A DNA stretch of 64,000 nt from Flagellimonas flava (GTDB taxonomy: Bacteria > Bacteroidota > Bacteroidia > Flavobacteriales > Flavobacteriaceae). The notes below the pieces were generated by a model, which saw only the letters and a list, made by a program, of their open reading frames with translations, was not told the origin of the DNA and searched no databases. Below, piece by piece: positions 5,834-39,101 of this stretch. Location: the NCBI RefSeq assembly GCF_900129665.1, contig NZ_FQWL01000004.1, positions 1-64,000 of the forward strand, given 5' to 3'. Within the stretch, counting starts at the first letter, position 1; every line of letters begins with the position of its first letter. The translations under genes were made by a program, and so were the position numbers.

Positions 5834-7087
5834 CTAGGAAATGACCATCCAGAAATAATACAGGGCAAACAAGGCCAGAAAGAGCATCCCCAAATAGGTA
5901 AGGAACTGCAATCCTTTTTTTGGTCGTAGCGCAGAGGGAACATCTTCTCCCATTACTGTTTTAAGGTTCATCCAGCCAATCAAAGGGGCCATTACAAAGG
6001 ACACAAAGGTTGCCAAAGCTACCAAACTGCCCATGTGTGCGCCAAAGCCCACAATTACGATCCAGTTTATAAGAGCCATGAGCACCACGGTAATTGCGAA
6101 CGAATGTTGACTGCTAAAAACCATTTTTTCGGGAAATAATTTTTGGAGCACGTCCAGACTCACCCTTGAAACGGCATCATGGGCGGTCATACATGTGCTG
6201 AACATAGTGGCAAAGGCAGCCACTGCGATTAAAAAATAGGCCCAGTTGCCAATATGTGTAGTGAACAGACTGACCACCTGATCTGCAAAAATTACAGCAT
6301 TGCCACTTAGTTCCGTTCCTGTTCCATAAAGTGTCATCCATCCAATTACCAAAAAGAATACGGCCAATAGGGCGGTCATAATATACCCTACATTAAATTC
6401 ATAAAGTGCTTCTTTTAAACTGGGTTTTTCCTTCATGGTCTTTTGGTTTTCCATGCTCCAGAGGCTTACCCATCCCGAAGCTTCCACAGCCGTCGGCATC
6501 CATCCCACAAGACTAATAAGGAATAAGATGCCAATTTCGTTGAAGATTTCTGGGCGTTGGTAGCTCTCTGATCCTGGAACAACTCCTTTATTAATGACCA
6601 TTACTGTTGTGATTAATAGTGCTACAAATAAAATGGATATGACCGCTTTCAGGGAGTTTTCAAGAAATTGGTATTTGCCAATAATCAGAATGGTCCCGAT
6701 GAAAACAAAAAGACAAAGAGCTACAATACCTTCACCAACCCCGGAAATTCCAAATAGGTTCATGAGAAGACCTGCCGTAACGATGTAAAGAGCTGCCAAT
6801 ATGGTAAAAGTGGAGACCACAGTGACACCCGCATAGATCCATAAATATTTTCGCCCAAGATTAAGATAGCCTTGGATGAGACTTTTATCGGTAACATTGG
6901 TATATCGGATTCCAAACTCGAAAAAAGGATACTTCAATATGTTGGCCAAGATTATTGGGATTGCCATCACCCATCCATACTGTGCACCTGCCTTAGTGGA
7001 CAGGACCAAATGTGATGTTCCGATTGCCATGCTTGCAAAGAGCAGACCTGGTCCAAGATTCTTTAAAAGCGTTTTAAGTTGAGACAT
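5834..7087 (-). CDS. Divergent Nramp-like membrane transporter
   Basis: 417 residues with about eleven hydrophobic helices and the Nramp-type opening LGPGLLFASMAIG. Canonical Nramp metal transporters carry Asp-Pro-Gly-Asn in helix 1 and Met-Pro-His in helix 6; here the first is Gly-Thr-Ser-His (residues 23-26) and the second Met-Pro-Thr (197-199). The Asp and Asn that hold Mn/Fe are therefore absent. It belongs to a divergent Nramp-related group usually annotated as divalent metal transporter, but the substrate should be treated as unknown. It is a single gene, convergent with the OmpA gene with eight bases between. A 24-base inverted repeat lies 20 bases upstream of its start (7107-7130). 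Confidence 0.75.
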   Translation of the reverse strand: MSQLKTLLKNLGPGLLFASMAIGTSHLVLSTKAGAQYGWVMAIPIILANILKYPFFEFGIRYTNVTDKSLIQGYLNLGRKYLWIYAGVTVVSTFTILAALYIVTAGLLMNLFGISGVGEGIVALCLFVFIGTILIIGKYQFLENSLKAVISILFVALLITTVMVINKGVVPGSESYQRPEIFNEIGILFLISLVGWMPTAVEASGWVSLWSMENQKTMKEKPSLKEALYEFNVGYIMTALLAVFFLVIGWMTLYGTGTELSGNAVIFADQVVSLFTTHIGNWAYFLIAVAAFATMFSTCMTAHDAVSRVSLDVLQKLFPEKMVFSSQHSFAITVVLMALINWIVIVGFGAHMGSLVALATFVSFVMAPLIGWMNLKTVMGEDVPSALRPKKGLQFLTYLGMLFLALFALYYFWMVIS

Positions 7088-7106
7088 AGACCTTGTTGAC
7101 TGTTGT

Positions 7107-7130
7107 TAACGAAAATAGGTTATTTCGTTA
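7107..7130. promoter_or_regulatory. Inverted repeat upstream of the Nramp-like gene, possible operator
   Basis: TAACGAAA and its exact reverse complement TTTCGTTA are separated by eight bases, starting 20 bases upstream of the transporter's start codon. The size and symmetry suit a dimeric repressor. No regulator gene lies beside it, so the binding protein is unknown. Confidence 0.35.
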
Positions 7131-7649
7131 GACTTCTAAAATAGGGTTGAATTGCAGCTGTGTAGAAAAGTAGAGTTCAAAAACCCTACGAACTCGGAAC
7201 TGATAAAAGTGTCCGTGCTGTTAAAGAGGGACAAGCCCCGATATACTCTTAAGTTGGGAGGGAATAAATGTGAAATTCCAAGAATCAGCGTAAAAAGTAA
7301 ACAACCAAGGTTTTACGTTTCATATTTGATTTACGCTGTGTAGTAATTTAAAACGATTTCGTTTATCCAGAGGTTGGTCTGGGGTGGTCAAATTGATCTT
7401 AACAAAATTTCACATCATTTTTTATATATTTATGAATAATTAACTTAAAAATATGCATTTATCGAACTTGGAAAGGTTGTTAAATGCACGACGCTAAAAC
7501 TATCTAACTCAAAACAATGATGACTATGACTCTTAGACCTTTACCGTCCTGATTTCACTTTGGAAGAATTCAGTATTGGGTTGTGTATACTATACCTGCC
7601 CATAAGACTGATGTAACAGAACCATCTTAAAGCTTTGCACAATTACGAT

Positions 7650-25000: not shown

Positions 25001-25600
25001 ATGGAACGGATGGATCAGAATAAAATTTGGTCAAAATTTAAGACTGGGGATAAAAAGGCTTTTGAGTCGGTGTACAAACTCTGTATTGATGACATGTATG
25101 CCTATGGCCTCAAGCTAAATCCAAATAAAGAACTGGTCAAAGATTGCATTCAACAGGTTTTTGTGGATGTGTATGAGCACAGAAATGGAATCTCTGACCC
25201 GAAAAACATAAAATTCTATATTCTAAAGGCGTTAAAACATGCCATTTATAAGCGTCAAAAGCGGGAAAATAAAAAATCCCACCTCGAAGAACTCTCGGAA
25301 TTGGAGTTCAGAACTGCCTATAATTTTGAGGATAAAAGAATCATCTCGGAAATAGATGAGCAAAAGCAGTTATTGGTAAAGAAAGCTTTGGGCTCCCTAT
25401 CCTCAAAACAACGGGAAATCATGTACCTGAGATTTACCTTAGGCTTGGACTATAATGAGATTTCCGATATGGCGGGCATTGATCACAGCTCCGTTAGAAA
25501 ACAGGTGTATCGCTCCATAAAAAAGTTGAGAAGCAGCGAGGTTTTTGATGATTACAAGAGTATTATACTGTTCTATTCCACACTTCCATTCTTTAATTGA
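25001..25600 (+). CDS. ECF-type RNA polymerase sigma factor (SusCD locus 2)
   Basis: 199 residues. Region 2 is seen at VKDCIQQVFVDVYEHR and region 4 at LSSKQREIMYLRF ... YNEISDMAGIDHSSVRKQVYRSIKKLR. A short hydrophobic tail follows, as in the sigma factor at 7762. It heads the second ECF-FecR-SusC-SusD set and should turn on the downstream scavenging genes when SusC engages its substrate. A second possible start is ATG 25010. Confidence 0.92.
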   Translation: MERMDQNKIWSKFKTGDKKAFESVYKLCIDDMYAYGLKLNPNKELVKDCIQQVFVDVYEHRNGISDPKNIKFYILKALKHAIYKRQKRENKKSHLEELSELEFRTAYNFEDKRIISEIDEQKQLLVKKALGSLSSKQREIMYLRFTLGLDYNEISDMAGIDHSSVRKQVYRSIKKLRSSEVFDDYKSIILFYSTLPFFN

Positions 25601-25657
25601 TTCAGTTAACTGGTTTTTTTGAATTTAAATAATTGAAAATCAGATAATTGAAAACTA

Positions 25658-25688
25658 TTTCTTAAAAAAGTCTAAAAAAAGTGTCCAC
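25658..25688 (+). promoter_or_regulatory. Conserved A-rich promoter-like element before fecR (locus 2)
   Basis: TTTCTT-A6-GTCT-A7-GTGTC, matching the element at 8433-8468 between the equivalent genes of locus 1. It begins 69 bases before the FecR start. It is the best candidate for the ECF-dependent promoter of fecR-susC-susD and what follows. Confidence 0.5.
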
Positions 25689-25726
25689 AAAAGGGCGTTT
25701 GGGTTCCCTATTATATAAAGGATACC

Positions 25727-26941
25727 ATGCTAAAAGGCTTTTCAAAATATCTCGATGACCCTAAGTTTGTGGATTGGATTGCGCATCCAACCCCTGAAAA
25801 GAACACTTATTGGGAACGCTATATCTCTGAAAATCCTAAGGAAAGGGAAAAAATACATGTCCTAAAAGAATGCTTATCCATGCTCCGAACCAAGGATGAG
25901 GTTCTTTCAAGGGATGAGAAAGAGGAAATTCTGGATTTAATATATCAGAAGGTAACGGTTGAACAGCCTAAACCAAGGCTAATCTATTTAAGTATACTAA
26001 AGTATGCTGCGATTGCTGTGATTCTTGTGGGTCTTGGTCTGTACATGAATACAGAGTCTACTTCCAAAAAAGCAATGGAAATAGATGAGCTGCTTCAAGT
26101 TGGAGTGGATTCCATTTCCACAACCAAATTAGTGCTTGCTGACGCTAAGGAAATTCATATCGAGGATAAAAAGTCAGATGTGAACTACAGCACTTCCGCC
26201 AATTTGGTGATCAATCAAAAAGATACTATTGCCATCACAAATACCACCAAGGACAAGAAGCCGGAAATGAATCAGCTTATAGTTCCCTTCGGTAAGCACA
26301 GTAAACTGACCTTGAGTGATGGATCTATAGTCCATTTGAACTCGGGCTCCAGGCTCATTTTTCCAGCAAAATTTACAGAGGCCATTCGTGAGGTCTACCT
26401 TGGAGGGGAAGCCTTTTTTGAGGTGGAGTCGGACAAAGAACGCCCCTTTGTTGTAAAATTGGTCAAAGACGAGACCTTTTCGGTAGAGGCTGTGGGAACC
26501 AAGTTTAATGTGAACTCCTATGACAGGCATAACTCGGTGACCACCGTGTTGACCGAAGGTGAAGTACATCTAAAGGACAATTCGAAAAATTCCTTTTTTA
26601 GTTCAAGCAAAAAAACAATAATGAAACCGGGCGAATTGGCCGAGTGGAATGTAACATCCCAAACCGTGGTTGCCCAGAAAAGGGTCAATACAGACTATTA
26701 TACCTCCTGGATAGATGGCATTCTTATATTCAATAGCGAAACCCTTAACGAGATAACTAGTAGAATATCGGCATTTTACAATGTAGATATACGGCTATCC
26801 GAGGAAGTTGATGGAGCGTTTAAGCTAACAGGAAAACTTGATTTGAACGAATCCTTGGAGACTACTTTGAAAAACTTGGCCATAACGGCTTCAATAACAT
26901 ATGAAAAAACTGAAAGCAATGGAATATTGATTTTCAAATAA
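25727..26941 (+). CDS. FecR family anti-sigma factor (SusCD locus 2)
   Basis: 404 residues. The cytoplasmic sigma-binding part is about 83 residues (FSKYLDDPKFVDWI near the start), followed by one membrane helix (about 84-106), a FecR domain (LSDGSIVHLNSGSRLIFP, EAVGTKFNVNSY) and a C-terminal DUF4974 domain. It links the STN domain of the next-encoded SusC to the upstream sigma factor. The full-length N-terminal part contrasts with the short one in the FecR at 8552. Confidence 0.92.
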   Translation: MLKGFSKYLDDPKFVDWIAHPTPEKNTYWERYISENPKEREKIHVLKECLSMLRTKDEVLSRDEKEEILDLIYQKVTVEQPKPRLIYLSILKYAAIAVILVGLGLYMNTESTSKKAMEIDELLQVGVDSISTTKLVLADAKEIHIEDKKSDVNYSTSANLVINQKDTIAITNTTKDKKPEMNQLIVPFGKHSKLTLSDGSIVHLNSGSRLIFPAKFTEAIREVYLGGEAFFEVESDKERPFVVKLVKDETFSVEAVGTKFNVNSYDRHNSVTTVLTEGEVHLKDNSKNSFFSSSKKTIMKPGELAEWNVTSQTVVAQKRVNTDYYTSWIDGILIFNSETLNEITSRISAFYNVDIRLSEEVDGAFKLTGKLDLNESLETTLKNLAITASITYEKTESNGILIFK

Positions 26942-26945
26942 AAAA

Positions 26946-26994
26946 CCAAGGCATGTTCGCACCATGCCTTGGCAGAAAGCCTGTATAAATACAG
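26946..26994 (+). promoter_or_regulatory. Two-hairpin leader before susC (locus 2)
   Basis: Hairpin 1 is a perfect 10-bp stem, CCAAGGCATG (26946-26955) with CATGCCTTGG (26963-26972). It is followed by CAGAAAGC and hairpin 2, CTGTAT/ATACAG (26981-26994). Plan and linker parallel the leader of susC in locus 1 although the stems differ in sequence, with compensating changes. Confidence 0.5.
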
Positions 26995-27024
26995 GGATTG
27001 TTTAACAAACAACTAACTAAAATT

Positions 27025-30000
27025 ATGGAAAAAAACCTATTTCCATATGATCACCTTCGTGATTTTATGGATAAAACTAAACAGGTGATGAAGTACCTAA
27101 CGCTATTTTTGCTCCTCTTCACGCTTTACTCTTACACCGATTCCTATTCGCAGAATACCAAACTTAGGCTGAATTTAAAAGACGCCACCTTGTTGGACAT
27201 GATTAGGAACATTGAAAGTCAAAGCGAGTTTGTCTTTATGTACGGGGATGATCTTTTACCGGTGCTGAGCAATGAAAGATTGGATTTCAAGGTTAGAAAT
27301 TTGACCATAGAGAACACCTTGGACCGATATTTTAAAGGTAGGGAAATTGCTTATTTCCTAAGTGGCAGACAGGTGGTACTAAGAAAAAATGAGACAGTCC
27401 AAAAATTCTCAGAATTACCGGATGTGCAGTATACGGTTTCGGGAATCGTAAGTGATGAGGCAGGACCACTGCCCGGTGCAAGTATTGTAATAAAGGGCAC
27501 AACTACGGGAACTACAACAGATTTTGATGGGAATTATTCCATTGAGGTGCCGAGTTCGGATGCCGTTCTGGTTGTAAGTTACATTGGGTACACCACTTCG
27601 GAAGTGCCTGTAAATGGGCAGACCGCGGTTAATGTTGTGCTTAAGGAAGACGCCCAGGCTTTGGAAGAAGTCGTGGTTACCGCCCTAGGTTTTGAGGTGA
27701 GAACCGATAAACTGGGAAGTGCGGTTTCGAGTGTAAGACCAGACGCGCTGGTACGTTCCGGGGAGACTTCCGTTGCCAACGCCATACAAGGAAAAATGGC
27801 CGGGGTAAATATTACCCGTAGTACGGGAGATCCAGGATCGGGTTCCAATATTAGAATTAGAGGAGCCAACACTATTTTCGGAAGCACCCAACCTCTTATC
27901 ATTGTCGATGGTATTCCGATCAATAATAACAATACCAGCGGAGGAGGAAGTAGCGCCACAGGAAATGGTACCTCCCAACAATCCCGTTTAAATGACATCA
28001 ACCCGAATGATATTGAGACGCTACAGGTGCTAAAAGGAGCATCTGCCGCTGCCCTTTGGGGCTCTAGGGCCTCTAACGGTGTGGTGGTCATAACCACTAA
28101 ATCAGGAAGGAAAGGATTCCGCATTTCGCTGAAAAGTACAGTGGCGATCGACAAAGTCAACGCCACACAGAAATTGCAGTCCACCTTTGGTCAAGGAAGG
28201 GGAGGTCTATATCGCAGTGGAACTGAGATCCGGTCTTGGGGTGACGAAATTGCCGCCAGAGCAGGTGGTGAGGATGCATTCGATACAAGCGGGGCATTTT
28301 TCATCGGGGACCAAACAGGGAGAACCTATTATCCCGTGGCTAACGGTACAGCTGATAATCCCAGCGGAGGAAAGAACTCCAGAGAGACATTCAATGACAA
28401 AAACTTTGATCAGGTATTTCAAGAGGGAATTCTCTTAGAACAGTCATTAAGCCTAAGTGCGGGAGATGACCAAAGCTCTCTCTTTTTTAGTTTAGGCAAT
28501 ACCGACCAAGATGGGGTAATCCGCAATAACGATTATAAAAGGCATACGGTCAATATTAGTGCCTCCAGAAAATTCAATGATTACTTAAGCCTGAAGTTGA
28601 AGGGTAAATATTCCAGAATAAGTGCAAATAGAATCCAGCAAAATTCTAATGTCGCGGGGATACTACTGGGCTTGTATAGAACCCCTGCTGACTTTGACAA
28701 CCAAGACTTTACGGGAACTTTTGTGGACGACACCGGAGCTGAGACACCAGGTCGCCATAGGGCCTATAGAAATGGAATTGGGCAAAGCAACCGTCCACGG
28801 TATAACAACCCACAATGGACTACGGATCGTCAGAAAGCACCAAATATTGTCAATCGACATATTTATTCCGCCGACTTGGATATTTTTCCGGTCGAAGGTA
28901 TGAACATTAAGCTCAGAGGTGGTGTGGATACTTACAATGACCGTAGATCATATCTGTATCCAATTGGCTCGGCACGAACGTCAACTCCTCCGGTGAGCAG
29001 GATAGATGGTAGTTTGGTGTTCGATAATATCGCGGAAACGGAGTTGAATTTTGACGCCATTATTAAGTACGACACTGATATAACAGAAGATATTACTTCG
29101 TCTTTTATCTTGGGATGGAACATCAATGATAGGAAGTTCAATAGGGAAACTTCCTATGGCAATGAGTTTATTGCGGACAGGGAACTGTTCAACCTATCCA
29201 ATTCTAGAGTAATCGGCTCGGAAAATTTCCGTTCCCATATTCGCTCAAACAGAGGTTACTCCACAGCTAATTTTGGGTTATTCGATCAGTTGTACATCGA
29301 TTTGTCCGGTACTGTGGAAGCTGCTTCCACCATTTCGGACCCTTTCTTTTACCCATCTGCTTCGGCAGCCTGGCAGTTCACAAATTCCGGATTGATCTCT
29401 GAAGATAGTTTCATGAGCTTCGGAAAAGTGAGGTTGAGCTGGGGTAAAGTGGGTATCCAACCAAGAGCTTATGGGAACTCTACCAATTTTGAAGGTGATT
29501 TCACCTATAACTCCGGTGTTGCGGGAGGCTTGAACTCGGTCTCCAATGGGGGTGGATTGCGACTCAATAACCTATTGGGTAATCCAACCCTAAAACCTGA
29601 AATAAAAACGGAAATCGAAGGTGGTTTGGAGCTGCGATTTTTCGACAATTTACTTTCCACCAGTTTTACCTATTATACCAACGAGGTGAAGGATATCCTC
29701 TTGGAAATAGATACGGCGCCAAGTTTCGGATTTCAGCGATTTTATACCAATGGGGCTACCATAGAAAACCGTGGATTCGAATTTGAATTCAATGCCAATT
29801 GGCTGCAATCCAGTGAGGATTGGACTTTCTCCACCTATGGGAACTTTGCCAGAAATAGAAATGAAGTAACCAGTCTTTTGGGAGCCGAAGTGCAACAATT
29901 AACTGGATTTGGTACAGGTGATTCCGTTGCAGCCGAAGGCTTCCAAATGGGGGCCATTTTTGGAGGAAAACTACCTAGGGATGATAACGGAAACATCATT

Positions 30001-30627
30001 TTGGACGATAATGGTTTCCCAGAGGGTGAGCCCGAATATGATGTTATCGGTGACCCCAATCCGGAATGGACCGCAGGACTTGGATTTAATGTAGGTTACA
30101 AGAACCTTGCTATGAATGTCTTGTTTGAACATTCGCAAGGAGGTGACTTCTATGACATTACCCGACAAATTAATGCCAGGTACGGAAGAGCTGAGGTAAC
30201 CGGGAACATCGTTACCATTCCTACGGATGGAATAGTCGATTTTGATGGAAATTCCTATAGTGCCGGAGACCGTGTGCGTGGTAATCTCTATGATTTTGGA
30301 GGCGGCAATGTCTTACTGAATGAACCATGGTATGATGGCAACGGAGCTGATAATAGAGGATTTAGCGAACTATGGCTTCAAGATGCCACCTGGACACGAC
30401 TCAGGGAACTGTCCTTGACCTATTCGTTTGGTGAGAAGTTTTTGGAAAAGATCAAACTCTCCTCTGCAAGCATCGGAGTAACGGGAAGAAATTTATTCTT
30501 ATGGACAGATGTTATCGGAAATGACCCGGATAAGAACTTTGCAGGTGTTGGAAATTCCAGAGGACTGGATTATTACACCAACCCGTCCACAAAGTCGTAC
30601 CTGTTCAATCTTAACTTAACATTTTAA
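27025..30627 (+). CDS. SusC/RagA family TonB-dependent transporter with STN domain (locus 2)
   Basis: 1200 residues. A signal anchor region near residues 20-42 ends SYSQ. Then an STN domain (about 43-120), a carboxypeptidase-regulatory-like domain (GASIVIKGTTTGTTTDFDGNY near 155), a TonB plug (IIVDGIPI, then LKGASAAALWGSRASNGVVVITTKSG-type signature split by my limit) and the barrel. ATG 27025 is chosen; the TTG at 26998 would run through the leader. With the SusD-like lipoprotein that follows it forms an energy-driven outer-membrane importer. The enzymes downstream suggest that its cargo is peptide-like, as for the related RagAB of P. gingivalis. Confidence 0.94.
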   Translation: MEKNLFPYDHLRDFMDKTKQVMKYLTLFLLLFTLYSYTDSYSQNTKLRLNLKDATLLDMIRNIESQSEFVFMYGDDLLPVLSNERLDFKVRNLTIENTLDRYFKGREIAYFLSGRQVVLRKNETVQKFSELPDVQYTVSGIVSDEAGPLPGASIVIKGTTTGTTTDFDGNYSIEVPSSDAVLVVSYIGYTTSEVPVNGQTAVNVVLKEDAQALEEVVVTALGFEVRTDKLGSAVSSVRPDALVRSGETSVANAIQGKMAGVNITRSTGDPGSGSNIRIRGANTIFGSTQPLIIVDGIPINNNNTSGGGSSATGNGTSQQSRLNDINPNDIETLQVLKGASAAALWGSRASNGVVVITTKSGRKGFRISLKSTVAIDKVNATQKLQSTFGQGRGGLYRSGTEIRSWGDEIAARAGGEDAFDTSGAFFIGDQTGRTYYPVANGTADNPSGGKNSRETFNDKNFDQVFQEGILLEQSLSLSAGDDQSSLFFSLGNTDQDGVIRNNDYKRHTVNISASRKFNDYLSLKLKGKYSRISANRIQQNSNVAGILLGLYRTPADFDNQDFTGTFVDDTGAETPGRHRAYRNGIGQSNRPRYNNPQWTTDRQKAPNIVNRHIYSADLDIFPVEGMNIKLRGGVDTYNDRRSYLYPIGSARTSTPPVSRIDGSLVFDNIAETELNFDAIIKYDTDITEDITSSFILGWNINDRKFNRETSYGNEFIADRELFNLSNSRVIGSENFRSHIRSNRGYSTANFGLFDQLYIDLSGTVEAASTISDPFFYPSASAAWQFTNSGLISEDSFMSFGKVRLSWGKVGIQPRAYGNSTNFEGDFTYNSGVAGGLNSVSNGGGLRLNNLLGNPTLKPEIKTEIEGGLELRFFDNLLSTSFTYYTNEVKDILLEIDTAPSFGFQRFYTNGATIENRGFEFEFNANWLQSSEDWTFSTYGNFARNRNEVTSLLGAEVQQLTGFGTGDSVAAEGFQMGAIFGGKLPRDDNGNIILDDNGFPEGEPEYDVIGDPNPEWTAGLGFNVGYKNLAMNVLFEHSQGGDFYDITRQINARYGRAEVTGNIVTIPTDGIVDFDGNSYSAGDRVRGNLYDFGGGNVLLNEPWYDGNGADNRGFSELWLQDATWTRLRELSLTYSFGEKFLEKIKLSSASIGVTGRNLFLWTDVIGNDPDKNFAGVGNSRGLDYYTNPSTKSYLFNLNLTF

Positions 30628-30641
30628 ACCACTTGAGAGTC

Positions 30642-32033
30642 ATGAAAGTATATAAAATGGTTTTAATCGCGGTCTTGTTGTTGGTTTCTTGCCAGAGCGC
30701 CGTGGACGATATAAATGAGAACCCAAACCAAATTGGGGATGTTGATGGCAGTGCCATATTTACCGGTATTCAACTGGCTGATGTGTCGGCGCAAATGGGA
30801 TTCCTTAATTGGGCCGGGGGTGTTGTGGCCGGATACTTTGTGGGTGATGGCCGACTTAGTACCATCCAAGACTATGGATATAATAATACCGATTCCGATA
30901 CGCCTTGGTCCAATATCTATATTGGAGTTGTGAATCAGGCGCGCAAGATCAGAAGCGGAATTGATGTGACCAATAGGGATTTCTTCTTTGGAGCGTCAAA
31001 GGTTATGGAAGCCCATGCTTTGGGCACTGCGACCAATGTTTTTGGAGATATTCCCTTTACGGAGGCTGGCAATGAGGATATTCCAAATCCGACCTACGAT
31101 GGTCAGGTTGCGGTTTATGGGGAACTTCAGGCGCTGTTGGATAGTGCCATTTCAGATTTACAAGCTTCTGGTGTTTCCGGAGGAATTGCAGAGGATTTGT
31201 TGTATGGCGGTAGTTCAGCAGATTGGATAAAAGCGGCCTATACCTTAAAGGCAAGGTTCTATTTGGATGTTGGGGATTATGCAAGTGCAATTTCCGCCGC
31301 GCAAAGTGGTATAGCGAATGCATCTGAAACTATGCAGTATATCCCAGCAACTCCTGGAGTAGGAGGGGGCAACAATTTTTTAAATGAATTGTTGAACAGT
31401 TCCACATTTGGTGGAGATATCAGTGCTGAAGGAACTTTCCTGATCGAATTGATAGGTACAGGAGCTGAAAGTCGAAACAATGCAAAAACAGATGAGGTAG
31501 ATCGTTTTGCGTATTACTATGATGGAACGGCAATCAATTTAGCTGGAATAGCGGCCCCGGATGAACCCATGAAGCAAATTTCTTTGGAAGAAAATACCCT
31601 AATATGGGCCGAAGCTTTGGCCCGAGGCGGGGCAGGAAGCTTTGATGCTGCTTTGGCCAAACTAAACGAGCACCGAGCCAATCTTAGGGCAGGGGAATTT
31701 TTCACAATTACAACAGGAATCTATGAGGATTATGTTTCTGCCGATTTTGAAAATGGGGGAATCGAAAACTTGGATGGATCTTTATCGCGTGAAGATGCTT
31801 TGCTACGGGAGGTAATTGAAGAACGTTATGTCACTTTCTTCAATCAGATTTTGGGCTTCAACGATTTAAGAAGAACCAAAAAAGACCCAGCTGCCCTACA
31901 AGTACCAGTACCATTTAACTCTGGGGCCCAACATCCAGAACGGTTTTTATATCCGTTTTCAGAGGAAAACACCAATGGAGCCAATGTTCCTCAAATCGCG
32001 GACATTTTTGTAAAGACCCCCATAAATCAATAA
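30642..32033 (+). CDS. SusD-like substrate-binding lipoprotein (SusD-like_2 type, locus 2)
   Basis: 463 residues. Lipoprotein signal with Cys17 (LLVSC). NENPN near the mature N-terminus, ADVSAQMGFLNWAGGV, and the C-terminal EERYVTFFNQILGFNDLRR motif fit the shorter SusD-like_2 group rather than the classical RagB/SusD group at 13211. It caps the SusC channel and holds substrate. ATG 30642 is used; the TTG at 30633 adds three residues. It is followed by a 28-base perfect palindrome, then the M14 peptidase gene. Confidence 0.88.
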   Translation: MKVYKMVLIAVLLLVSCQSAVDDINENPNQIGDVDGSAIFTGIQLADVSAQMGFLNWAGGVVAGYFVGDGRLSTIQDYGYNNTDSDTPWSNIYIGVVNQARKIRSGIDVTNRDFFFGASKVMEAHALGTATNVFGDIPFTEAGNEDIPNPTYDGQVAVYGELQALLDSAISDLQASGVSGGIAEDLLYGGSSADWIKAAYTLKARFYLDVGDYASAISAAQSGIANASETMQYIPATPGVGGGNNFLNELLNSSTFGGDISAEGTFLIELIGTGAESRNNAKTDEVDRFAYYYDGTAINLAGIAAPDEPMKQISLEENTLIWAEALARGGAGSFDAALAKLNEHRANLRAGEFFTITTGIYEDYVSADFENGGIENLDGSLSREDALLREVIEERYVTFFNQILGFNDLRRTKKDPAALQVPVPFNSGAQHPERFLYPFSEENTNGANVPQIADIFVKTPINQ

Positions 32034-32087
32034 TAGGAATTTGAATTAGTTTGAGTTTGTAGTTCTTATGTCTCGCTTTTTACAGCA

Positions 32088-32115
32088 GACCGTTCCAAGT
32101 TAACTTGGAACGGTC
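32088..32115. terminator. 28-base perfect palindrome after susD (locus 2)
   Basis: GACCGTTCCAAGTT is followed directly by its exact reverse complement. As RNA it would make a strong hairpin, but there is no T-run on the + strand, so it may be a partial terminator that lowers expression of the downstream enzymes, a processing site, or an operator. Confidence 0.5.
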
Positions 32116-32215
32116 GGCATGGGGGCTAAGATTCATTCGGTGCCAATGGTTTGGTAGTGGGAAACAGTCCAATCTTTTTGGTATTCAATAATTCTAAGCA
32201 CAATAACCACCGTAA

Positions 32216-33379
32216 ATGTCAGTCCAACATCTAATTATATCAATGGTATGCGTCTTTATTTGCCTATCATGTCAGGAAAGGGATCAGGTTTATTTCGATG
32301 CCTCTTTTGATGGTGCGCGTTTAGGTGCGGTTAAAAAGATGGGCGTAGATAGATATGAGGCCCAAGTGCGACCTGCGTTTGAACCGGTTAACCCGAGTCC
32401 ATGGTATGCTTTCACGGTTCAATCGGAAAAACTACATACAATTCAATTGAAGTTGAAATATGGAAAATACCAACATCGGTATATTCCAAAGATAAGTTCA
32501 GATGGTAACCATTGGCAACCCTTAGATACCTCTTTGGTAAGGGTAGACACCATAGGTCATTCGGCTACCTTGACGCTTAAAGTGGGACCAGAAAAACATT
32601 TTGTGGCTGCCCAAGAAATTGAAAGTGCTGAGGATACCTTCTTTTGGGCCAAGCAAAAAGCGAAAGAAAATCCGAACTCCCAATTGGAAATTGCAGGAAA
32701 CACTGTGAAAGGAAATCCCAATTACGTTTTAATTCATGAACAAGAGAAACCTAAGGATTTTATTGTCCTAGTGGCGCGTCAACACCCACCTGAAATACCA
32801 GGTGGAACCATTGGTTTTAAAAGTTTCTACGAAACCCTTTTGTCCGAAACCACCACGGCAAAGGAATTTCGAAAGCATTTCAACATTTATGCTTTTCCAC
32901 TGTTAAACCCGGATGGGGCGGATAGTGGAAACTGGCGACATAATGCTAATGGGATAGATTTAAACAGGGATTGGGTGGCATTTTCACAACCAGAAACGCA
33001 AACGGTCAGGGACTTTGTGGATCATAAAATTGCAGAAGGACAAAAAATCCGCTTTGCTCTGGATTTTCACACCTCTCATAGCGGGCCCTATGTTTTGGTC
33101 CTCGACTCTATAAATGAGGTGAAAACAAAAAAAATAATCCCCAACTGGATTAAAAATATTGAATCAACCACCTCTTTGAAGGTTGAGGTTAGACGAAGAA
33201 GCCAAGAACTTCCCTATTGCTATAACTTTTTTTACAATACCTATCAGGCAGAAGCGGTTACCTATGAAGATGGAGATGAAGATAATCGTGATACCATAAA
33301 AGAAAGAGGTCGCATCTATGCCACTCAACTCATGGAAGTCCTTTTGGAAAAATCGGCAAAAAATGAATTCTATGAATAA
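32216..33379 (+). CDS. M14 family zinc carboxypeptidase lipoprotein (first copy)
   Basis: 387 residues. A lipoprotein-like signal ends at Cys19. An N-terminal beta domain (about 25-130) precedes the M14 catalytic domain: zinc ligands His190 and Glu193 in RQHPPE and His285 in LDFHTSH, RHNANGIDLNRDW with the substrate-binding Arg/Asn region (241-253), and catalytic Glu351 in VTYEDGDED. This is the cytosolic-carboxypeptidase-like M14 layout (N-domain plus peptidase) but with an export signal. It should remove C-terminal residues from peptides in the periplasm or at the surface. It overlaps the next gene by eight bases and is paralogous to the gene at 37851. Confidence 0.9.
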   Translation: MSVQHLIISMVCVFICLSCQERDQVYFDASFDGARLGAVKKMGVDRYEAQVRPAFEPVNPSPWYAFTVQSEKLHTIQLKLKYGKYQHRYIPKISSDGNHWQPLDTSLVRVDTIGHSATLTLKVGPEKHFVAAQEIESAEDTFFWAKQKAKENPNSQLEIAGNTVKGNPNYVLIHEQEKPKDFIVLVARQHPPEIPGGTIGFKSFYETLLSETTTAKEFRKHFNIYAFPLLNPDGADSGNWRHNANGIDLNRDWVAFSQPETQTVRDFVDHKIAEGQKIRFALDFHTSHSGPYVLVLDSINEVKTKKIIPNWIKNIESTTSLKVEVRRRSQELPYCYNFFYNTYQAEAVTYEDGDEDNRDTIKERGRIYATQLMEVLLEKSAKNEFYE

Positions 33380-34940
33380 AAGGCTTTTGTTTCTTGGTAC
33401 ATTTTTTTTGACTATGGTCTCCTGTTCAAAGCCTATTATTGAGGCTGATATCCTCATACGTAACGGAAGGGTATACAATGGATTTGAGGATGGGGAAACG
33501 AATGATGTGATTGTCGTCAAAGGAGATAAGATCCTTTTTATAGGTGGAGAGAAGGATGTCAGTATTAAAGCCAAAAAGATCATTGATGCCACAGGTCTTA
33601 TTGTTTCTCCTGGCTTTATTGACCCACATACCCATGCCGATCGGGATTTAAACAAACCCAAGACCTCCCACAACCTGCCCTTTATAATGCAAGGTGTTAC
33701 CACTGTGGTAGCGGGTAATGATGGAGATAGTTTTTTTCCGGCTAGGACTTATGTGGACAAATACGAAAAACAGGGTATTGGCACCAACGCTATTTTATTG
33801 ATAGGCCATGAAACCATGAGGAAAGAAGTTATTGGTTTGAGCGATCGAGTGGCAACAGACAACGAAATCACCGAAATGAAAAAACTCCTCAAAAAAGAAA
33901 TGAACGATGCCGGTAATTTTGGAATGTCAACAGGCTTGTTCTATGCTCCCGGAAGTTATTCCGAAACCAAAGAAGTAATTGAACTGGCAAAGACCTGTGC
34001 CGAAAATGGTGGGATATATGATACCCACTTAAGGGACGAAAGCTCCTATACCGTTGGTTTAATTGCCGCAGTGGAAGAAGCCCTAGAAATTGGCAGGCAG
34101 GCTAAATTGCCCATTCATATTTCACACATTAAATGTTTGGGAGTCGATGTTTGGGGCCAAAGCGATACAATCATTTCAATGGTGGAAAAGGCACGGAAAA
34201 ATGGCGTGGAAATTACCGCAAACCAGTACCCATATGAAGCCTCTGCTACAGGACTTAGAGCTGCCACAACACCAAAATGGGCTCAAAGCGGTGGAACGGA
34301 TTCACTATTGATTCGATTTGACGATCCAAAACTTAAACAACGAATTTTAAAAGAGACCAAAAACAATATTAGACGCAGAGGCGGGCCGGAATCTTTGTTG
34401 GTTGTTGTTACCGCAAACCCAAACTATCGTAACAAAACACTACTTCAAATTGCACAAGAGTTAAACTTGTCCCCGGAAGAAGCTGTATATAAAGTGTTGC
34501 GAACAAAAGGAATTGCAAGGGTGGCTTCATTTAATATGTCCAACTATGATATTCAGCAGTTCATGAAAATGGATTGGGTAACAACGGGCTCCGATGGAAA
34601 TACTGGACACCCCAGAAAGTACGGCTCGTTTCCTAGAAAATATAACAAGTATGTAAAAGAGGACCGGATTTTGGATTTGCCCAATTTTATCAAAAATAGT
34701 TCGTCCAAAACCGCCGAAATCTTCAAGATCCCAAATAGGGGAAAACTTAAGGAAGGATATTTTGCAGACATTATTTTGTTCAATCCGCAAACTTTTAGAG
34801 ATCGAGCTGATTATAAAAATGCTTTTCACTATGCAGAGGGACTGGAGTATTCCATTATTAATGGAAAACTCGCAGTTGAAAAAGGAGAGTATACCGATGG
34901 CCTATTCGGGAGGGTTTTAAGAAAAAACAATGCAAACTAG
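33372..34940 (+). CDS. N-acyl-D-amino-acid deacylase (D-aminoacylase) lipoprotein
   Basis: 522 residues. A lipoprotein signal ends at Cys18 (MVSC). The amidohydrolase domain carries His86-x-His88 (GFIDPHTHAD), His219 (THLRDE), His249 (PIHISH) and catalytic Asp408 (TTGSDGNTGHPRKYGSFPR), the D-aminoacylase pattern, including the YAPGSY stretch. It hydrolyses N-acyl-D-amino acids to D-amino acid plus acid. The usual metal-bridging Cys in GNCG is Asp117 (GNDG) here, so the metal site is altered, which may change metal or substrate. ATG 33372 is chosen because it gives a clean lipoprotein signal and overlaps the preceding stop (ATGAATAAA); ATG 33363 is an alternative. Same operon as the racemase that follows 18 bases later. 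Confidence 0.88.
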   Translation: MNKRLLFLGTFFLTMVSCSKPIIEADILIRNGRVYNGFEDGETNDVIVVKGDKILFIGGEKDVSIKAKKIIDATGLIVSPGFIDPHTHADRDLNKPKTSHNLPFIMQGVTTVVAGNDGDSFFPARTYVDKYEKQGIGTNAILLIGHETMRKEVIGLSDRVATDNEITEMKKLLKKEMNDAGNFGMSTGLFYAPGSYSETKEVIELAKTCAENGGIYDTHLRDESSYTVGLIAAVEEALEIGRQAKLPIHISHIKCLGVDVWGQSDTIISMVEKARKNGVEITANQYPYEASATGLRAATTPKWAQSGGTDSLLIRFDDPKLKQRILKETKNNIRRRGGPESLLVVVTANPNYRNKTLLQIAQELNLSPEEAVYKVLRTKGIARVASFNMSNYDIQQFMKMDWVTTGSDGNTGHPRKYGSFPRKYNKYVKEDRILDLPNFIKNSSSKTAEIFKIPNRGKLKEGYFADIILFNPQTFRDRADYKNAFHYAEGLEYSIINGKLAVEKGEYTDGLFGRVLRKNNAN

Positions 34941-34958
34941 ATCAAAAGATAAAACAGA

Positions 34959-36500
34959 ATGGAAAAGCTGAAAAGATACTTTCTATTTGTCCTGGGCACT
35001 ATACTTGTAGCAGGCTGCAAGGAGGAACCCAAAAGGGAAATAGTGATTCACGGTGAAACCAAAACGGACATTGTCACCACGATTATTCAGGAAGAGGATA
35101 ATTTTTACCATATAGACTTTGAAAACTACCCGAGTTCGAACAAATCCTTACCAATTGGAGTTTTCGATTCTGGAACAGGAGGATTGACCGTGCTAAAGGC
35201 CATTATTAACTATGACGAGAATCACAATGGGTCACATGAAAAAGGAGGGGATGGTGAACTCGATTTTAAGAAAGAAGCCTTTATCTACCTAGGAGACCAG
35301 GCCAATATGCCCTACGGAAATTATTCCAGCGTGGGAAAGGTAGACCTGCTTAAGGAGCATATTATTAAGGATGCACAATTTCTCTTGGGAAACAAATACT
35401 ATTCAAACCGTTTGGACCGGTCACCAAACATGGATAAAAAACCAGTCAAAGCTTTGGTCATCGCGTGCAATACGGCAACGGCCTATGGTAAGAACTATAT
35501 TGAAGAATTTTTGCAAAAAGCGAATCTTGATATCAAGGTCATTGGAGTTATAGACGCGGGTGTAAGGGGAACTTTGGATGGAATAGGTAAGAACGAGGAT
35601 GCCATAGTGGGTGTACTGGCCACAGCAGGGACGGTGGCTTCAAAGGGATATCGTAATACCTTGTTGGAACTTAAGGATAAAATGGGCTACACTGGAAAAA
35701 TTGAGGTGTTTTCCCAAGGCGGAGTTGGAATCGCAGAGGCCGTCGACGAAGACCCTGATTACTTTGACAAAAATCTAAGAAAACCACGAGATGCCTACAA
35801 AGGACCAAGCTTGAAGGGGGAACTCAAAATTGAACGTACCCTGTTTGATATCTATAACTTCGATTTCGATGACAGCAAAATGCTTTGTGACAGTGAAAAG
35901 AGTGATGATTGTTCCATCCTTCAAATAAACGATGCGGAAAATTATGTGCGCTACCATCTGGTTACCCTTATGGAACAGATTCGGCAATCCAATACCACAA
36001 ACCAATTGAAATCCTTGATTTTGGGCTGCACACACTACCCTTATATGACCAAGGAAATTGAGAAGGTACTTGGCGAGCTCTATAACTATAAATCAAAAGA
36101 TGGGAACTATTTATATCGACCTTATATGGTTGAGAAAATTGCCTTGGTAGATCCGGCCGTGGATACAGCCAAGGAGCTTTTTGCCCACCTAAAGGAGCAG
36201 TCCCTTTTTAATACCAATGGCAAGATGGAGGAGAGCGAGTTTTTTATCAGCGTGACCAATAGGGACAACAAGGCAAATATTATAGATAGCTTGGGCCGTT
36301 TTCCTTACGACTTTAAATATGGAAGAAATGCTGGGGAGATCCAGCAATATGTAAAGATGGTTCCCTTTAGTCGAGATAATGTTTCCGATGCTATTTTAGA
36401 CCGGTTTCAAAAGCAGATACCTCGGGTGTATAAACTGATGGAGGCGTTCAATGCGTCCAATGAAAAGTGCACGGAACTTCACGAGAGCGATAAGATCTAA
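34959..36500 (+). CDS. Glutamate racemase family lipoprotein (extracytoplasmic MurI-like)
   Basis: 513 residues. A lipoprotein signal ends at Cys20 (LVAGC). The rest is a cofactor-free MurI-type racemase: GVFDSGTGGLTVL with Asp70 and Ser71, GDQANMPYG with Tyr119, first catalytic Cys170 in IACNTAT, second catalytic Cys357 in LGCTHYP. All key residues are kept, so it should be active as D/L-glutamate racemase. It is nearly twice the usual 260-290 residues, because of insertions at about 84-107 and 262-347 and a long C-terminus. MurI is normally cytoplasmic and makes D-glutamate for cell wall; a lipoprotein form cannot do that. Between a D-aminoacylase and a glutamate symporter its likely role is turning scavenged D-glutamate into L-glutamate. 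Confidence 0.88.
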   Translation: MEKLKRYFLFVLGTILVAGCKEEPKREIVIHGETKTDIVTTIIQEEDNFYHIDFENYPSSNKSLPIGVFDSGTGGLTVLKAIINYDENHNGSHEKGGDGELDFKKEAFIYLGDQANMPYGNYSSVGKVDLLKEHIIKDAQFLLGNKYYSNRLDRSPNMDKKPVKALVIACNTATAYGKNYIEEFLQKANLDIKVIGVIDAGVRGTLDGIGKNEDAIVGVLATAGTVASKGYRNTLLELKDKMGYTGKIEVFSQGGVGIAEAVDEDPDYFDKNLRKPRDAYKGPSLKGELKIERTLFDIYNFDFDDSKMLCDSEKSDDCSILQINDAENYVRYHLVTLMEQIRQSNTTNQLKSLILGCTHYPYMTKEIEKVLGELYNYKSKDGNYLYRPYMVEKIALVDPAVDTAKELFAHLKEQSLFNTNGKMEESEFFISVTNRDNKANIIDSLGRFPYDFKYGRNAGEIQQYVKMVPFSRDNVSDAILDRFQKQIPRVYKLMEAFNASNEKCTELHESDKI

Positions 36501-36520
36501 TATTTCAAAAAATCTGAGCC

Positions 36521-37828
36521 ATGAAATTAAAACTTGCACTGCACTGGAAAATTTTGATTGGGATGGGGTTGGGTGTGGCCTTGGGTCTTCTAATGTCCAC
36601 GTTCGAAGGTGGGAAAGAAATAGTTCAGGATTGGATAAAACCTTTTGGGAAAATCTTTATCAATGCCCTTAAATTGATTGCCATTCCCTTGATATTGGCA
36701 GCCTTGATAAAAGGAGTTTCAGATTTGAAGGATATCAGCAAACTCTCAAAAATGGGTGGTAGAACAATCGGCATTTATCTGACCACTACGGTTATTGCGG
36801 TGAGTATAGGTTTGTTTTTAGTTAATTTGATACAACCCGGAACCTCCATAACCGAGTCCACACGAACCGAAATGGTTTCGAATTATACCGAAAGTACCCA
36901 AGCCTACAAGGAAACAGCAAAATCCAGACAACAAGAGGGGCCTTTGAAACCTTTGGAAGATTTGGTGACCGATAACATCTTCGCCTCCGCAACAAGCAAT
37001 AGGAATATGTTACAAGTAATTTTCTTTGCCATATTTTTTGGGATTGGGTTGATTTTGATTCCGCAGGAAATGGGTAGTACGGTAAAGCATTTTTTCGATG
37101 GTTTTAATGAGGTCATCCTAAAAATGGTAGATCTTATAATGCTAACTGCGCCCTATGGGGTATTTGCTTTACTCGCTGCAATCGTTGTGGAAGCACCTAG
37201 CGTTGACTTGTTTAAAGCTTTGGCATGGTATTCCACAACGGTTATTATTGGCCTTGGGATTATGATAGGGATATATACCGTATTGGTTTTTGTCTTCACA
37301 AAACGAAGTCCGAAGTTTTTCATCAATGGCATTTCACCAGCTCAATTGTTGGCTTTTTCTACAAGTTCCAGCGCGGCAACTTTACCGGTTACCATGGAGC
37401 GGGTCACGGAACATTTGGGGGTAGAAGAAGAGGCCGCCAGTTTTGTATTGCCCATAGGAGCTACTATAAACATGGATGGTACGAGTTTGTACCAAGCGGT
37501 AGCAGCGGTTTTTATAGCACAAGCCTTTGGGATGGATCTTGATTTTTCCACCCAATTGGGCATTATTGCCACTGCCACATTGGCCTCAATAGGGTCAGCA
37601 GCAGTTCCGGGGGCCGGGATGGTAATGTTGGTTGGGGTGATGGGATATGCGGGGATTCCTGAAGCGGGGCTTGCCCTGATTTTTGCAGTAGATAGACCAT
37701 TGGATATGCTCAGGACATCTGTCAATGTTACTGGGGATGGTGCAGTATCGATGCTTGTGGCCAAATCCGTTGGGAAACTAGGTGCTCCGAAAGTGAAAAA
37801 TTGGGATGACAATTATCCATCCGTATAA
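36521..37828 (+). CDS. Dicarboxylate/amino acid:cation symporter, glutamate/aspartate type
   Basis: 435 residues with eight helices and two re-entrant loops. The hairpin-1 serine motif SSSAATLP, the helix-7 motif NMDGT and the helix-8 block DRPLDMLRTSVNVTGD (391-406) are intact. Aligned to the archaeal GltPh, Asp395, Arg398, Thr399, Asn402 and Asp406 fall on Asp394, Arg397, Thr398, Asn401 and Asp405; Arg at that site binds the side-chain carboxylate of glutamate or aspartate. It therefore most likely imports acidic amino acids with sodium or protons across the inner membrane. It starts 20 bases after the racemase gene, making it the natural uptake step for the product of that enzyme. Confidence 0.92.
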   Translation: MKLKLALHWKILIGMGLGVALGLLMSTFEGGKEIVQDWIKPFGKIFINALKLIAIPLILAALIKGVSDLKDISKLSKMGGRTIGIYLTTTVIAVSIGLFLVNLIQPGTSITESTRTEMVSNYTESTQAYKETAKSRQQEGPLKPLEDLVTDNIFASATSNRNMLQVIFFAIFFGIGLILIPQEMGSTVKHFFDGFNEVILKMVDLIMLTAPYGVFALLAAIVVEAPSVDLFKALAWYSTTVIIGLGIMIGIYTVLVFVFTKRSPKFFINGISPAQLLAFSTSSSAATLPVTMERVTEHLGVEEEAASFVLPIGATINMDGTSLYQAVAAVFIAQAFGMDLDFSTQLGIIATATLASIGSAAVPGAGMVMLVGVMGYAGIPEAGLALIFAVDRPLDMLRTSVNVTGDGAVSMLVAKSVGKLGAPKVKNWDDNYPSV

Positions 37829-37850
37829 CATAAACTAAATACTCCCTTCC

Positions 37851-39101
37851 ATGAAAAGAATGAAAACTTTAAACGTAATATGTCGCAGAGGGCTTTTTGG
37901 CTTGCTGGGAATTCTATTCCTGGTGCAATGTTCTGGACCAAAAAAGGTTCGTTTTGAAATACCTGTTGACACTAGGGACAAGCCAATTTCGCTTCAAACG
38001 AAACGGAAGTACGAGTTTAAGGAGATGGGGGTTTGGGTTGGAAATGAGTTTGACGGAGCGCGTCTAAATGGTGCTTTTCCACTAAATGATTCGACCATTG
38101 CACTGCGATTTGATCCGGAAAATACCCCCATTAATAAAAGTCCTTATTATGCTTTTGAGACTGGGTCAGACACCTCAAAAACCATTTATTTCAAATTTGA
38201 GTATCCGGATGGTTTCGAACATCGCTATGAACCAAAGAGGAAACAGGGTGGCAAATGGAGTATAATTGATTCTGTCAATGTGCTAAGTGCAGATGAGGGC
38301 ATTTTTCTCAAATTGAAGCTAGGTTCTGAACCCCAGATAGTGGCAGCTCAAGAAATCAACACTTCCACGGATGTGGAGCAGTGGTATATGAACCGCATCG
38401 TAGAACCTCATGACTTTGTGAAATTAAAAAGTGCGGGGCAATCTACCATGGGAAGAAACCTGCCGGTATTGGAACTATCGTTTGGAGAAGTGGAAGACAA
38501 GCCAATCGTTGTTCTGCTGACCAGGCAACATCCTCCAGAAGTAACCGGATTTTTCGCATTTCAACATTTTTTGGAAGCCTTGGTGGGTCAAGGTACTTTG
38601 ACGCAAGAGTTTTTGAAAAAGTATAGGGTCTTGGCGTTTCCAATTATGAACCCAGATGGGGTTGACCTGGGACATTGGAGGCATAATGCCAATGGGGTCG
38701 ATTTAAATCGCGATTGGTCCAAATACCACCAACAAGAAATCAAAAATGTGGTGTCTTACGTTACGGCGGCTTCAAAAATGGGTGGCAGTATTGTCTTGGG
38801 ATTGGATTTTCATTCAACCTATGAGGATGTCTTCTACACCAATGTTACTCGGGAGGGTACCAGTTTGCCCAATTTTATTTCAGATTGGTTCGAGGTTTTG
38901 GAAAGGGATATTCCAAGCTATGTGGTGAATGAAAAACCATCTAATAGTACACGTCCGGTGTCAAAGGGATGGTTTTTATATGGGCAAAATGCCACAGGCA
39001 TTACTTATGAAATTGGTGATCATACCCCAAAAGAAAGAATAGCCGAAATTGGGACCCAATCGGCCATAGCCATGATGGAAATCCTGTTAAAGGGAAAGTA
39101 A
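37851..39101 (+). CDS. M14 family zinc carboxypeptidase lipoprotein (second copy)
   Basis: 416 residues. A lipoprotein signal ends at Cys27 (FLVQC). Same layout as the gene at 32216: an N-terminal beta domain then M14 peptidase with RQHPPE zinc ligands, RHNANGVDLNRDW, LDFHSTYED with the third zinc His, and the catalytic Glu in GITYEIGDH. The shared motifs mark the two as paralogs that bracket the D-aminoacylase, racemase and symporter genes. They may differ in the residue removed. It is the last gene of the operon, 22 bases after the symporter, and is followed by a hairpin. Confidence 0.9.
   Translation: MKRMKTLNVICRRGLFGLLGILFLVQCSGPKKVRFEIPVDTRDKPISLQTKRKYEFKEMGVWVGNEFDGARLNGAFPLNDSTIALRFDPENTPINKSPYYAFETGSDTSKTIYFKFEYPDGFEHRYEPKRKQGGKWSIIDSVNVLSADEGIFLKLKLGSEPQIVAAQEINTSTDVEQWYMNRIVEPHDFVKLKSAGQSTMGRNLPVLELSFGEVEDKPIVVLLTRQHPPEVTGFFAFQHFLEALVGQGTLTQEFLKKYRVLAFPIMNPDGVDLGHWRHNANGVDLNRDWSKYHQQEIKNVVSYVTAASKMGGSIVLGLDFHSTYEDVFYTNVTREGTSLPNFISDWFEVLERDIPSYVVNEKPSNSTRPVSKGWFLYGQNATGITYEIGDHTPKERIAEIGTQSAIAMMEILLKGK

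Follow-up and report, generated by a model that had tools for sequence, protein, structure and literature searches.

Glutamate racemase (MurI) is a cytosolic enzyme that serves cell-wall synthesis. For D-acidic amino acids, a pathway of irreversible racemisation is known in which intracellular N-acetylation is followed by racemisation by DgcA, and SusCD polysaccharide utilisation loci are known to bring together SusC, SusD, an extracytoplasmic function (ECF) sigma factor with FecR, and lipoprotein hydrolases. With Tannerella forsythia, a cluster in which ampG stands with MurT, MurK and MurQ was described as one of peptidoglycan recycling (PMC7670621). The locus considered here lies within 64,000 nucleotides of Flagellimonas flava (positions 1 to 64,000 of contig NZ_FQWL01000004.1, assembly GCF_900129665.1; "the window" denotes this whole stretch). 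It is a block of nine genes, one of which encodes a glutamate-racemase-like lipoprotein, MurIp, flanked by genes for a D-aminoacylase-family lipoprotein and an acidic amino acid symporter. The locus probably functions in the uptake and processing of peptides that contain D-glutamate (D-Glu), most likely the stem peptides of peptidoglycan and fragments of these. With somewhat less assurance, we favour the broader view that MurIp represents a new, catabolic branch of glutamate racemases relocated to the envelope as lipoproteins, which in the Bacteroidota is tied to two systems for the uptake of peptidoglycan fragments (SusCD with D-aminoacylase in the Flavobacteriaceae, AmpG with a NagZ-beta-lactamase protein in a distant family) and would convert D-Glu to L-Glu before entry into the cytoplasm. 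No published report of a glutamate racemase in the envelope or elsewhere outside the cytoplasm was found in a search that covered few subscription papers.

By its conserved residues and its predicted fold, MurIp looks like a working glutamate racemase, yet one that stands outside the MurI family as filed; it is not placed there because its match to TIGR00067 (101.8 bits, E 4e-29) is below the equivalog cut-off of 146.65 bits. The match to PF01177 is likewise below its cut-off (29 versus 31 bits), and with 513 amino acids the protein is about twice as long as MurI, exceeding it by some 250 residues. The residues of racemisation are invariant and glutamate racemases head its structural matches; MurIp also forms a clade of its own, in genomes that carry a separate MurI. 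Among 34 distinct genes, that of the window included, D70, S71, C170, N171, T172, C357, T358 and H359 do not vary, and every one retains the DSGxGG, CNT and GCTHYP motifs along with the two catalytic cysteines (the alignment has 35 rows because one gene, L049/L069, was entered twice; L015 was left out, and the MurIp of L010 and L012, 92.6% identical, were both counted; L and G denote loci and genomes throughout). In a second alignment, the motif columns were conserved in at least 34 of 35 distinct genes. The lipobox cysteine was seen, by alignment and by eye, in 33 of the 34 distinct genes, the exception (L070) being a record broken by N. When an AlphaFold model of MurIp (pLDDT 77.7, with weak stretches at residues 1-34, 115-118, 255-269 and 286-291) was compared with the PDB using Foldseek, ranks 1 to 41 were all glutamate racemases, placed ahead of aspartate racemase, with 2gzm at the top (E 2.9e-15) and TM-scores by target of 0.60-0.76 over those ranks.

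In a quick tree, MurIp formed one clade apart from 30 MurI sequences of carrier genomes (SH-aLRT 100, branch length 3.28); among the MurI rows, L162 stood alone at the end of a very long branch. A separate MurI above the TIGR00067 cut-off is present in 31 of the 32 MurIp carriers tested, with MurIp itself staying below it (32 of 37 known carriers were taken in, leaving out G448, G468, G611, G1169 and G1201). The exception is L062 (genome G1062), the sole tested carrier without a separate MurI match at E 1e-10, where MurIp was the only match. That MurIp is simply the ordinary MurI of its host was rejected, as the genome of F. flava has a separate MurI above the cut-off (G000:C13:69628-70320) and MurIp falls in its own clade. 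It could also be argued that racemase activity has been lost, or another substrate gained, such that the extra residues and the low family score mark a new enzyme; the sub-cut-off match, the long branch in the tree and the weak stretches of the model would all fit. This is considered unlikely, given that the racemisation residues were found to be invariant in all of the distinct sequences and that Foldseek placed glutamate above aspartate racemases.

The sequence-only reading of the window had proposed that its gene set be sought in other genomes, and this was done with 34 MurIp loci outside the window, 19 from a contig scan and 15 fetched (omitted were the fragments L035/L036 and L050, the latter also with two stops, the unrelated L024, and duplicates such as L026, identical to L005; L034 and L049 are listed as L070 and L069, respectively). 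For loci close to the end of a contig, the neighbour counts are minimum values. The expectation of a conserved set held in part. A D-aminoacylase gene lies directly upstream of MurIp on the same strand in 23 of the 34 loci, and 25 have one in this orientation at a distance of up to 9 kb. Over the same range and on the same strand, 21 loci carry a homologue of SusC or SusD and 19 carry one or more M14 peptidase genes (these two values being tallied from the table of loci). The symporter gene is present in 10, and the full order susC-susD-M14a-D-aminoacylase-MurIp-symporter-M14b is shared by three loci (L005, L009 and L017). A chance neighbourhood was rejected because the gene set and its arrangement turn up again in other genomes. 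In the subset of MurIp loci that were compared, identity falls to 24-26% for SusC and SusD as against at least 53% for the enzymes, which suggests that the uptake pair has been swapped for different ligands.

Further genes accompany some of these loci. A lipoprotein termed c7, with an fn3 domain and a domain bearing conserved Cys and His residues, is encoded beside MurIp or the D-aminoacylase (for example, L008:11563-12867) and was seen in 11 of the 34 MurIp loci; its model (pLDDT 47.2) was too poor for a fold search, and a single BLAST against the L069 protein that resembles N-formylglutamate amidohydrolase yielded E 0.53. Within four clusters (L014, at 6233-7228, L015, L016 and L072) a 2,4-diaminopentanoate-dehydrogenase-like gene hints at an extra amino acid step. 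The extended cluster of L069 encodes a gamma-glutamyltranspeptidase, an N-formylglutamate-amidohydrolase-like protein, a penicillin amidase, two beta-lactamase-type hydrolases, MurIp, a D-aminoacylase, an S9 peptidase and a symporter.

MurIp is patchily distributed. Counting the genome of the window in each sample, it was found in 11 of 71 genomes of the genus (in G448 as two fragments), in at least 15 of 397 genomes of the family sample (in G468 as a broken fragment), in at least one of 395 of the order sample (single-protein query) and in at least 8 of 395 of the phylum sample (profile query); in the latter three samples mostly three candidates were scored per genome, making these values lower bounds. 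The contig scan returned 19 relatives of 66-77% identity (L005-L023) and one unrelated locus. The relatives belong mostly to genera of the Flavobacteriaceae, with a few metagenome-assembled genomes labelled Flavobacteriales, Bacteroidetes or Saprospiraceae, and the genus matches overlap these named loci (G416, for example, is L005, from Muricauda myxillae).

The D-aminoacylase-family protein encoded immediately upstream of MurIp has among its PDB matches D-aminoacylases and the N-acyl-D-glutamate deacylase 3gip (E 7.8e-45); it exceeds the cut-off of Pfam Amidohydro_3, and its PRK09061 match does not reach its own (183 versus 340 bits). Within an alignment of 26 sequences, H86, H88, D117, H219, H252, K254, D408 and R415 are invariant. 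With residue roles taken from an account of D-aminoacylases (PMC12017989), these retain in 26 of 26 the HxH motif, two metal-binding His, the catalytic Asp, and the Lys and Arg that bind the carboxylate. The same source identifies Arg295 of the Bordetella N-acyl-D-glutamate deacylase as the basic residue for the gamma-carboxylate. Position 302 of the present family, which is Lys or Arg in 25 of the 26, may stand in for it, with the register between the two positions uncertain. A role as a GlcNAc1A deacetylase of the OngB kind (PpOngB was among the PDB matches) was put aside, the block encoding amino acid enzymes and zero chitin genes.

Homologues of this D-aminoacylase were found in 59 of the 71 genus genomes versus 11 for MurIp. 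Of the 24 D-aminoacylase regions of at least 54% identity that do not adjoin MurIp, 20 were read (L108-L127; G450, G461, G445 and G449 were left out), and these contained MurIp in no case, a SusC homologue in 19 and c7 in 16; two of the regions come from one genome (G431), and the genome of L121 has MurIp elsewhere. An exclusive pairing of D-aminoacylase and MurIp was accordingly rejected, and since the former occurs mostly without the latter, in the company of SusC and c7, MurIp appears to have been added to a broader module. The 20 regions also encode a lipoprotein of a 386-amino-acid type in 16 cases (the single copy scanned had no Pfam match) and, in 11, a regulator that by its sequence is MocR-like. 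The frequency of D-aminoacylase with SusC and without MurIp speaks for a further explanation, that the locus serves D-amino acids, free or N-acylated, instead of peptides and that SusCD imports N-acyl-D-amino acids or lipopeptide-like compounds. Characterised D-aminoacylases do deacetylate N-acetyl-D-amino acids (PMC12017989). Nonetheless, the block contains two M14 peptidases and the distant MurIp have neighbours of a muropeptide type, and this explanation is held to be unlikely.

These distant neighbours point to peptidoglycan peptides more than to poly-gamma-glutamate. In f31, a distant family of the same phylum, MurIp was found in 10 of 79 genomes with 47-53% identity, and in 8 of these 10 loci an AmpG-family permease, a fusion of a NagZ-type GH3 domain with a beta-lactamase-type domain and/or a BadF/NagK-like kinase is encoded nearby. 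The gene directly upstream of MurIp is that for AmpG in L064, L133, L134 and L135 and that for the GH3 fusion in L068, whereas a few genes separate MurIp from the recycling-type genes in L066, L136 and L137. Domain scans were made with L064 and L066, and NCBIfam comparisons with L066 (the permeases of L064 and L068 were compared as well), the rest being named by likeness. As all the f31 loci are from one family, they may reflect one event. Elsewhere, a gene of L020 has as its best NCBIfam matches, below cut-off, N-acetyl-D-Glu racemase and L-Ala-D/L-Glu epimerase; the cluster of L073 includes GH3/NagZ-like, GH18 and NagB-PIG-L genes; and beta-lactamase-type hydrolases are encoded near MurIp in L062 and L069. 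Together with f31, these contexts point to peptidoglycan fragments.

The two M14 peptidases raise the alternative of poly-gamma-glutamate. The nearest PDB sequences of M14a are bacterial M14 enzymes of the CCP type and CCP5, those of M14b are bacterial M14 enzymes and CCP5, and MpaA is matched weakly by both; the HPPE, NAxGxDLNRDW, DFH and YE residues of M14a are invariant in 15 sequences. CCP enzymes include deglutamylases, such as CCP6 (PMC9867282), and a bacterial member has been proposed to act on polyglutamate (PMC3940198). The substrate could thus be a capsule or slime polymer containing D-Glu, trimmed by the M14 enzymes (and, in some relatives, by gamma-glutamyltranspeptidase) before conversion of D-Glu by MurIp; a homologue of that transpeptidase is present in 7 of the 34 loci. 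A gamma-linked homopolymer would need no D-aminoacylase, and it would leave unexplained both the AmpG, NagZ and kinase neighbours in f31 and the epimerase-like gene of L020. Because of those f31 neighbours peptidoglycan peptides are favoured, and poly-gamma-glutamate is thought unlikely.

The symporter has an aspartate transporter as its nearest PDB sequence (E 9.2e-89) and scores 253 bits with the NCBIfam GltP model, below the cut-off of 638. It belongs to the SDF family, retains the NMDGT and DMxRTxVNVTGD motifs and, as expected of a DAACS protein, has the Arg of transmembrane segment 8, a residue with a role in the recognition of acidic substrates.

Taken together, a pathway for peptidoglycan peptides can be proposed. 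The ECF sigma factor and FecR would act as the sensor of SusC-mediated uptake, and SusCD, by its family, would carry peptides over the outer membrane. In the envelope, M14a and M14b would trim the peptide C-terminal to the D-Glu residue and the D-aminoacylase would cleave the amide on its N-side (for example, that of L-Ala-D-Glu or N-acyl-D-Glu), freeing D-Glu. MurIp, in which the residues for two-base racemisation are present, would then turn the D-Glu into L-Glu, either in the periplasm or on the surface of the cell, and the GltP-type symporter would import the resulting L-Glu. Racemisation outside the cytoplasm would render a D-Glu importer and D-Glu catabolic enzymes unneeded and would separate scavenged D-Glu from the supply with which the cell builds its own wall. 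The opposite direction, with MurIp producing extracellular D-Glu for cell-wall editing or signalling, would be in keeping with the reversibility of racemases and with its lipoprotein signals, and periplasmic broad-spectrum racemases are a precedent for extracellular D-amino acid production. With MurIp grouped among uptake proteins, degrading enzymes and an importer, it is regarded as highly improbable.

Several observations weigh against the proposed pathway. MurIp stays below the TIGR00067 cut-off, and its model is weak in parts, including residues 115-118, which adjoin conserved positions. In the D-aminoacylase, Asp117 replaces the metal-binding Cys of subtype V enzymes in 26 of 26 sequences, and the Cys/His/His site is absent. 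The CCP-like M14 peptidases and the gamma-glutamyltranspeptidase of some loci are compatible with polyglutamate as well, and the symporter is found in only 10 of the 34 loci. AmpG, NagZ and kinase genes were seen only near distant MurIp homologues; among the nine window genes, a Pfam domain scan detected no glycosidase, amidase, AmpG, NagZ or kinase for N-acetylmuramic acid or N-acetylglucosamine, and in this respect the block differs from known recycling loci. The f31 regions, as read, are without D-aminoacylase, and L063, L065 and L067 lack the recycling-type neighbours; none of the matches to AmpG, NagZ, kinase or epimerase families reaches its NCBIfam cut-off, though the E-values are strong, and the recycling genes of L133-L137 were named solely by BLAST to those of L066.

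The D-glutamate pathway of the sequence-only reading accordingly stands in part: the retained racemase residues and the muropeptide-type genes near distant homologues speak for it, and the departure of the D-aminoacylase from the standard metal site does not. Its statement that every step from uptake to import is represented went too far, the steps being inferred and the symporter missing from most relatives. Of the substrates it had named, peptidoglycan peptides are judged more likely than poly-gamma-glutamate or the broad class of N-acyl-D-amino acids. If the proposal is correct, MurI-type racemisation extends beyond the cytosol and wall synthesis, the Bacteroidota possess a SusCD route devoted to the peptide portion of peptidoglycan, and MurIp is a marker gene for envelope D-Glu turnover by a pathway of few proteins.

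The listing of open reading frames confirmed nine co-directional genes with the domains first ascribed to them (Table 1); the block ends at 39101, and the next listed genes downstream are on the opposite strand. SusC has plug and carboxypeptidase-regulatory domains above the Pfam cut-offs and possibly an N-terminal signalling (STN) domain, a weak match only (E 0.0084; 16.3 versus 28.4 bits), and its gene adjoins that of SusD, as in SusCD loci. For the D-aminoacylase, ATG 33372 is the most likely start codon, and a further ATG lies in frame upstream of it, at 33318; with the start at 33372, the spacing noted earlier is borne out, the last five genes being tightly packed with an 8-base overlap between M14a and the D-aminoacylase followed by gaps of 18, 20 and 22 bases. 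Inspection by eye, with no predictor, also agreed with the lipoprotein signals claimed for all the enzymes: lipobox-type N-termini are present in M14a, D-aminoacylase, MurIp and M14b, and likewise in SusD and in relatives.

Table 1. Genes of the block in the window, with the matches on which their naming is based.
Gene product	Position	Strand	Support
ECF-type sigma factor	25001..25600	+	Pfam Sigma70_r4_2 E 1.3e-10; NCBIfam TIGR02937 78.2 bits (cut-off 42.9)
FecR-type anti-sigma factor	25727..26941	+	Pfam FecR and FecR_C above cut-off
SusC-family TonB-dependent outer-membrane transporter	26998..30627	+	TIGR04056 610.8 bits (cut-off 368.25)
SusD-like lipoprotein	30633..32033	+	PF12771 E 1.6e-21; PF12741 E 7.2e-17
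M14a, M14 peptidase lipoprotein, probably of the bacterial CCP type	32216..33379	+	PF00246 E 1.3e-14
D-aminoacylase-family lipoprotein, presumed N-acyl- or aminoacyl-D-Glu hydrolase	33372..34940	+	PDB matches; Amidohydro_3
MurIp, glutamate-racemase-like lipoprotein	34959..36500	+	TIGR00067 E 4e-29 (below cut-off); PDB 1b73 E 3.9e-16
DAACS (SDF/GltP-type) acidic amino acid symporter	36521..37828	+	PF00375 411.5 bits
M14b, second M14 peptidase lipoprotein, probably of the CCP type	37851..39101	+	PF00246 E 6.1e-19

The nine genes may be transcribed as more than one unit: a gap of 182 bases splits SusD from the enzyme genes and carries a perfect 28-base palindrome (32088..32115, with no strand). 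The palindrome occurs once in the window and its 24-base core at one site in the genome, and the intergenic RNA folds far better than shuffled sequences (z = -5.5). It is a possible attenuator, processing site or operator, and it was absent from the terminator-like sites listed by a scan. That scan (20 sites versus 15.7, sd 5.1, in shuffles) and a scan for promoters, which covers the sigma-70 type only (14 versus 30.2 in shuffles), gave nothing usable.

Compared with known systems, the locus combines familiar parts in an unfamiliar arrangement. It has in common with SusCD polysaccharide loci SusC, SusD, the ECF sigma/FecR pair and lipoprotein hydrolases, but its nine genes encode peptide and amino acid enzymes and zero carbohydrate-active enzymes. 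The AmpG recycling cluster of T. forsythia (PMC7670621) is resembled by the f31 loci, with their AmpG-family permease and sugar-kinase-family gene near MurIp, whereas the window has SusCD and a GltP-type symporter in place of AmpG, NagZ and kinase genes. With the D-aminoacylases and N-acyl-D-glutamate deacylases of the subtype V amidohydrolases (PMC12017989), the window enzyme shares HxH, two metal-binding His, Lys, the catalytic Asp and the carboxylate-binding Arg, and it differs from them in the Asp at the position of the metal-binding Cys and in its lipoprotein signal. MurIp likewise has the fold, both catalytic Cys and the three motifs of MurI (TIGR00067), but it is a lipoprotein of roughly double the length, encoded in an uptake locus, in a separate clade, and beside a normal MurI in 31 of the 32 carriers tested. 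Finally, the irreversible racemisation pathway also acts on D-acidic amino acids; its enzymes are others, and in the present locus the racemase would be a MurI-type lipoprotein working in the envelope.

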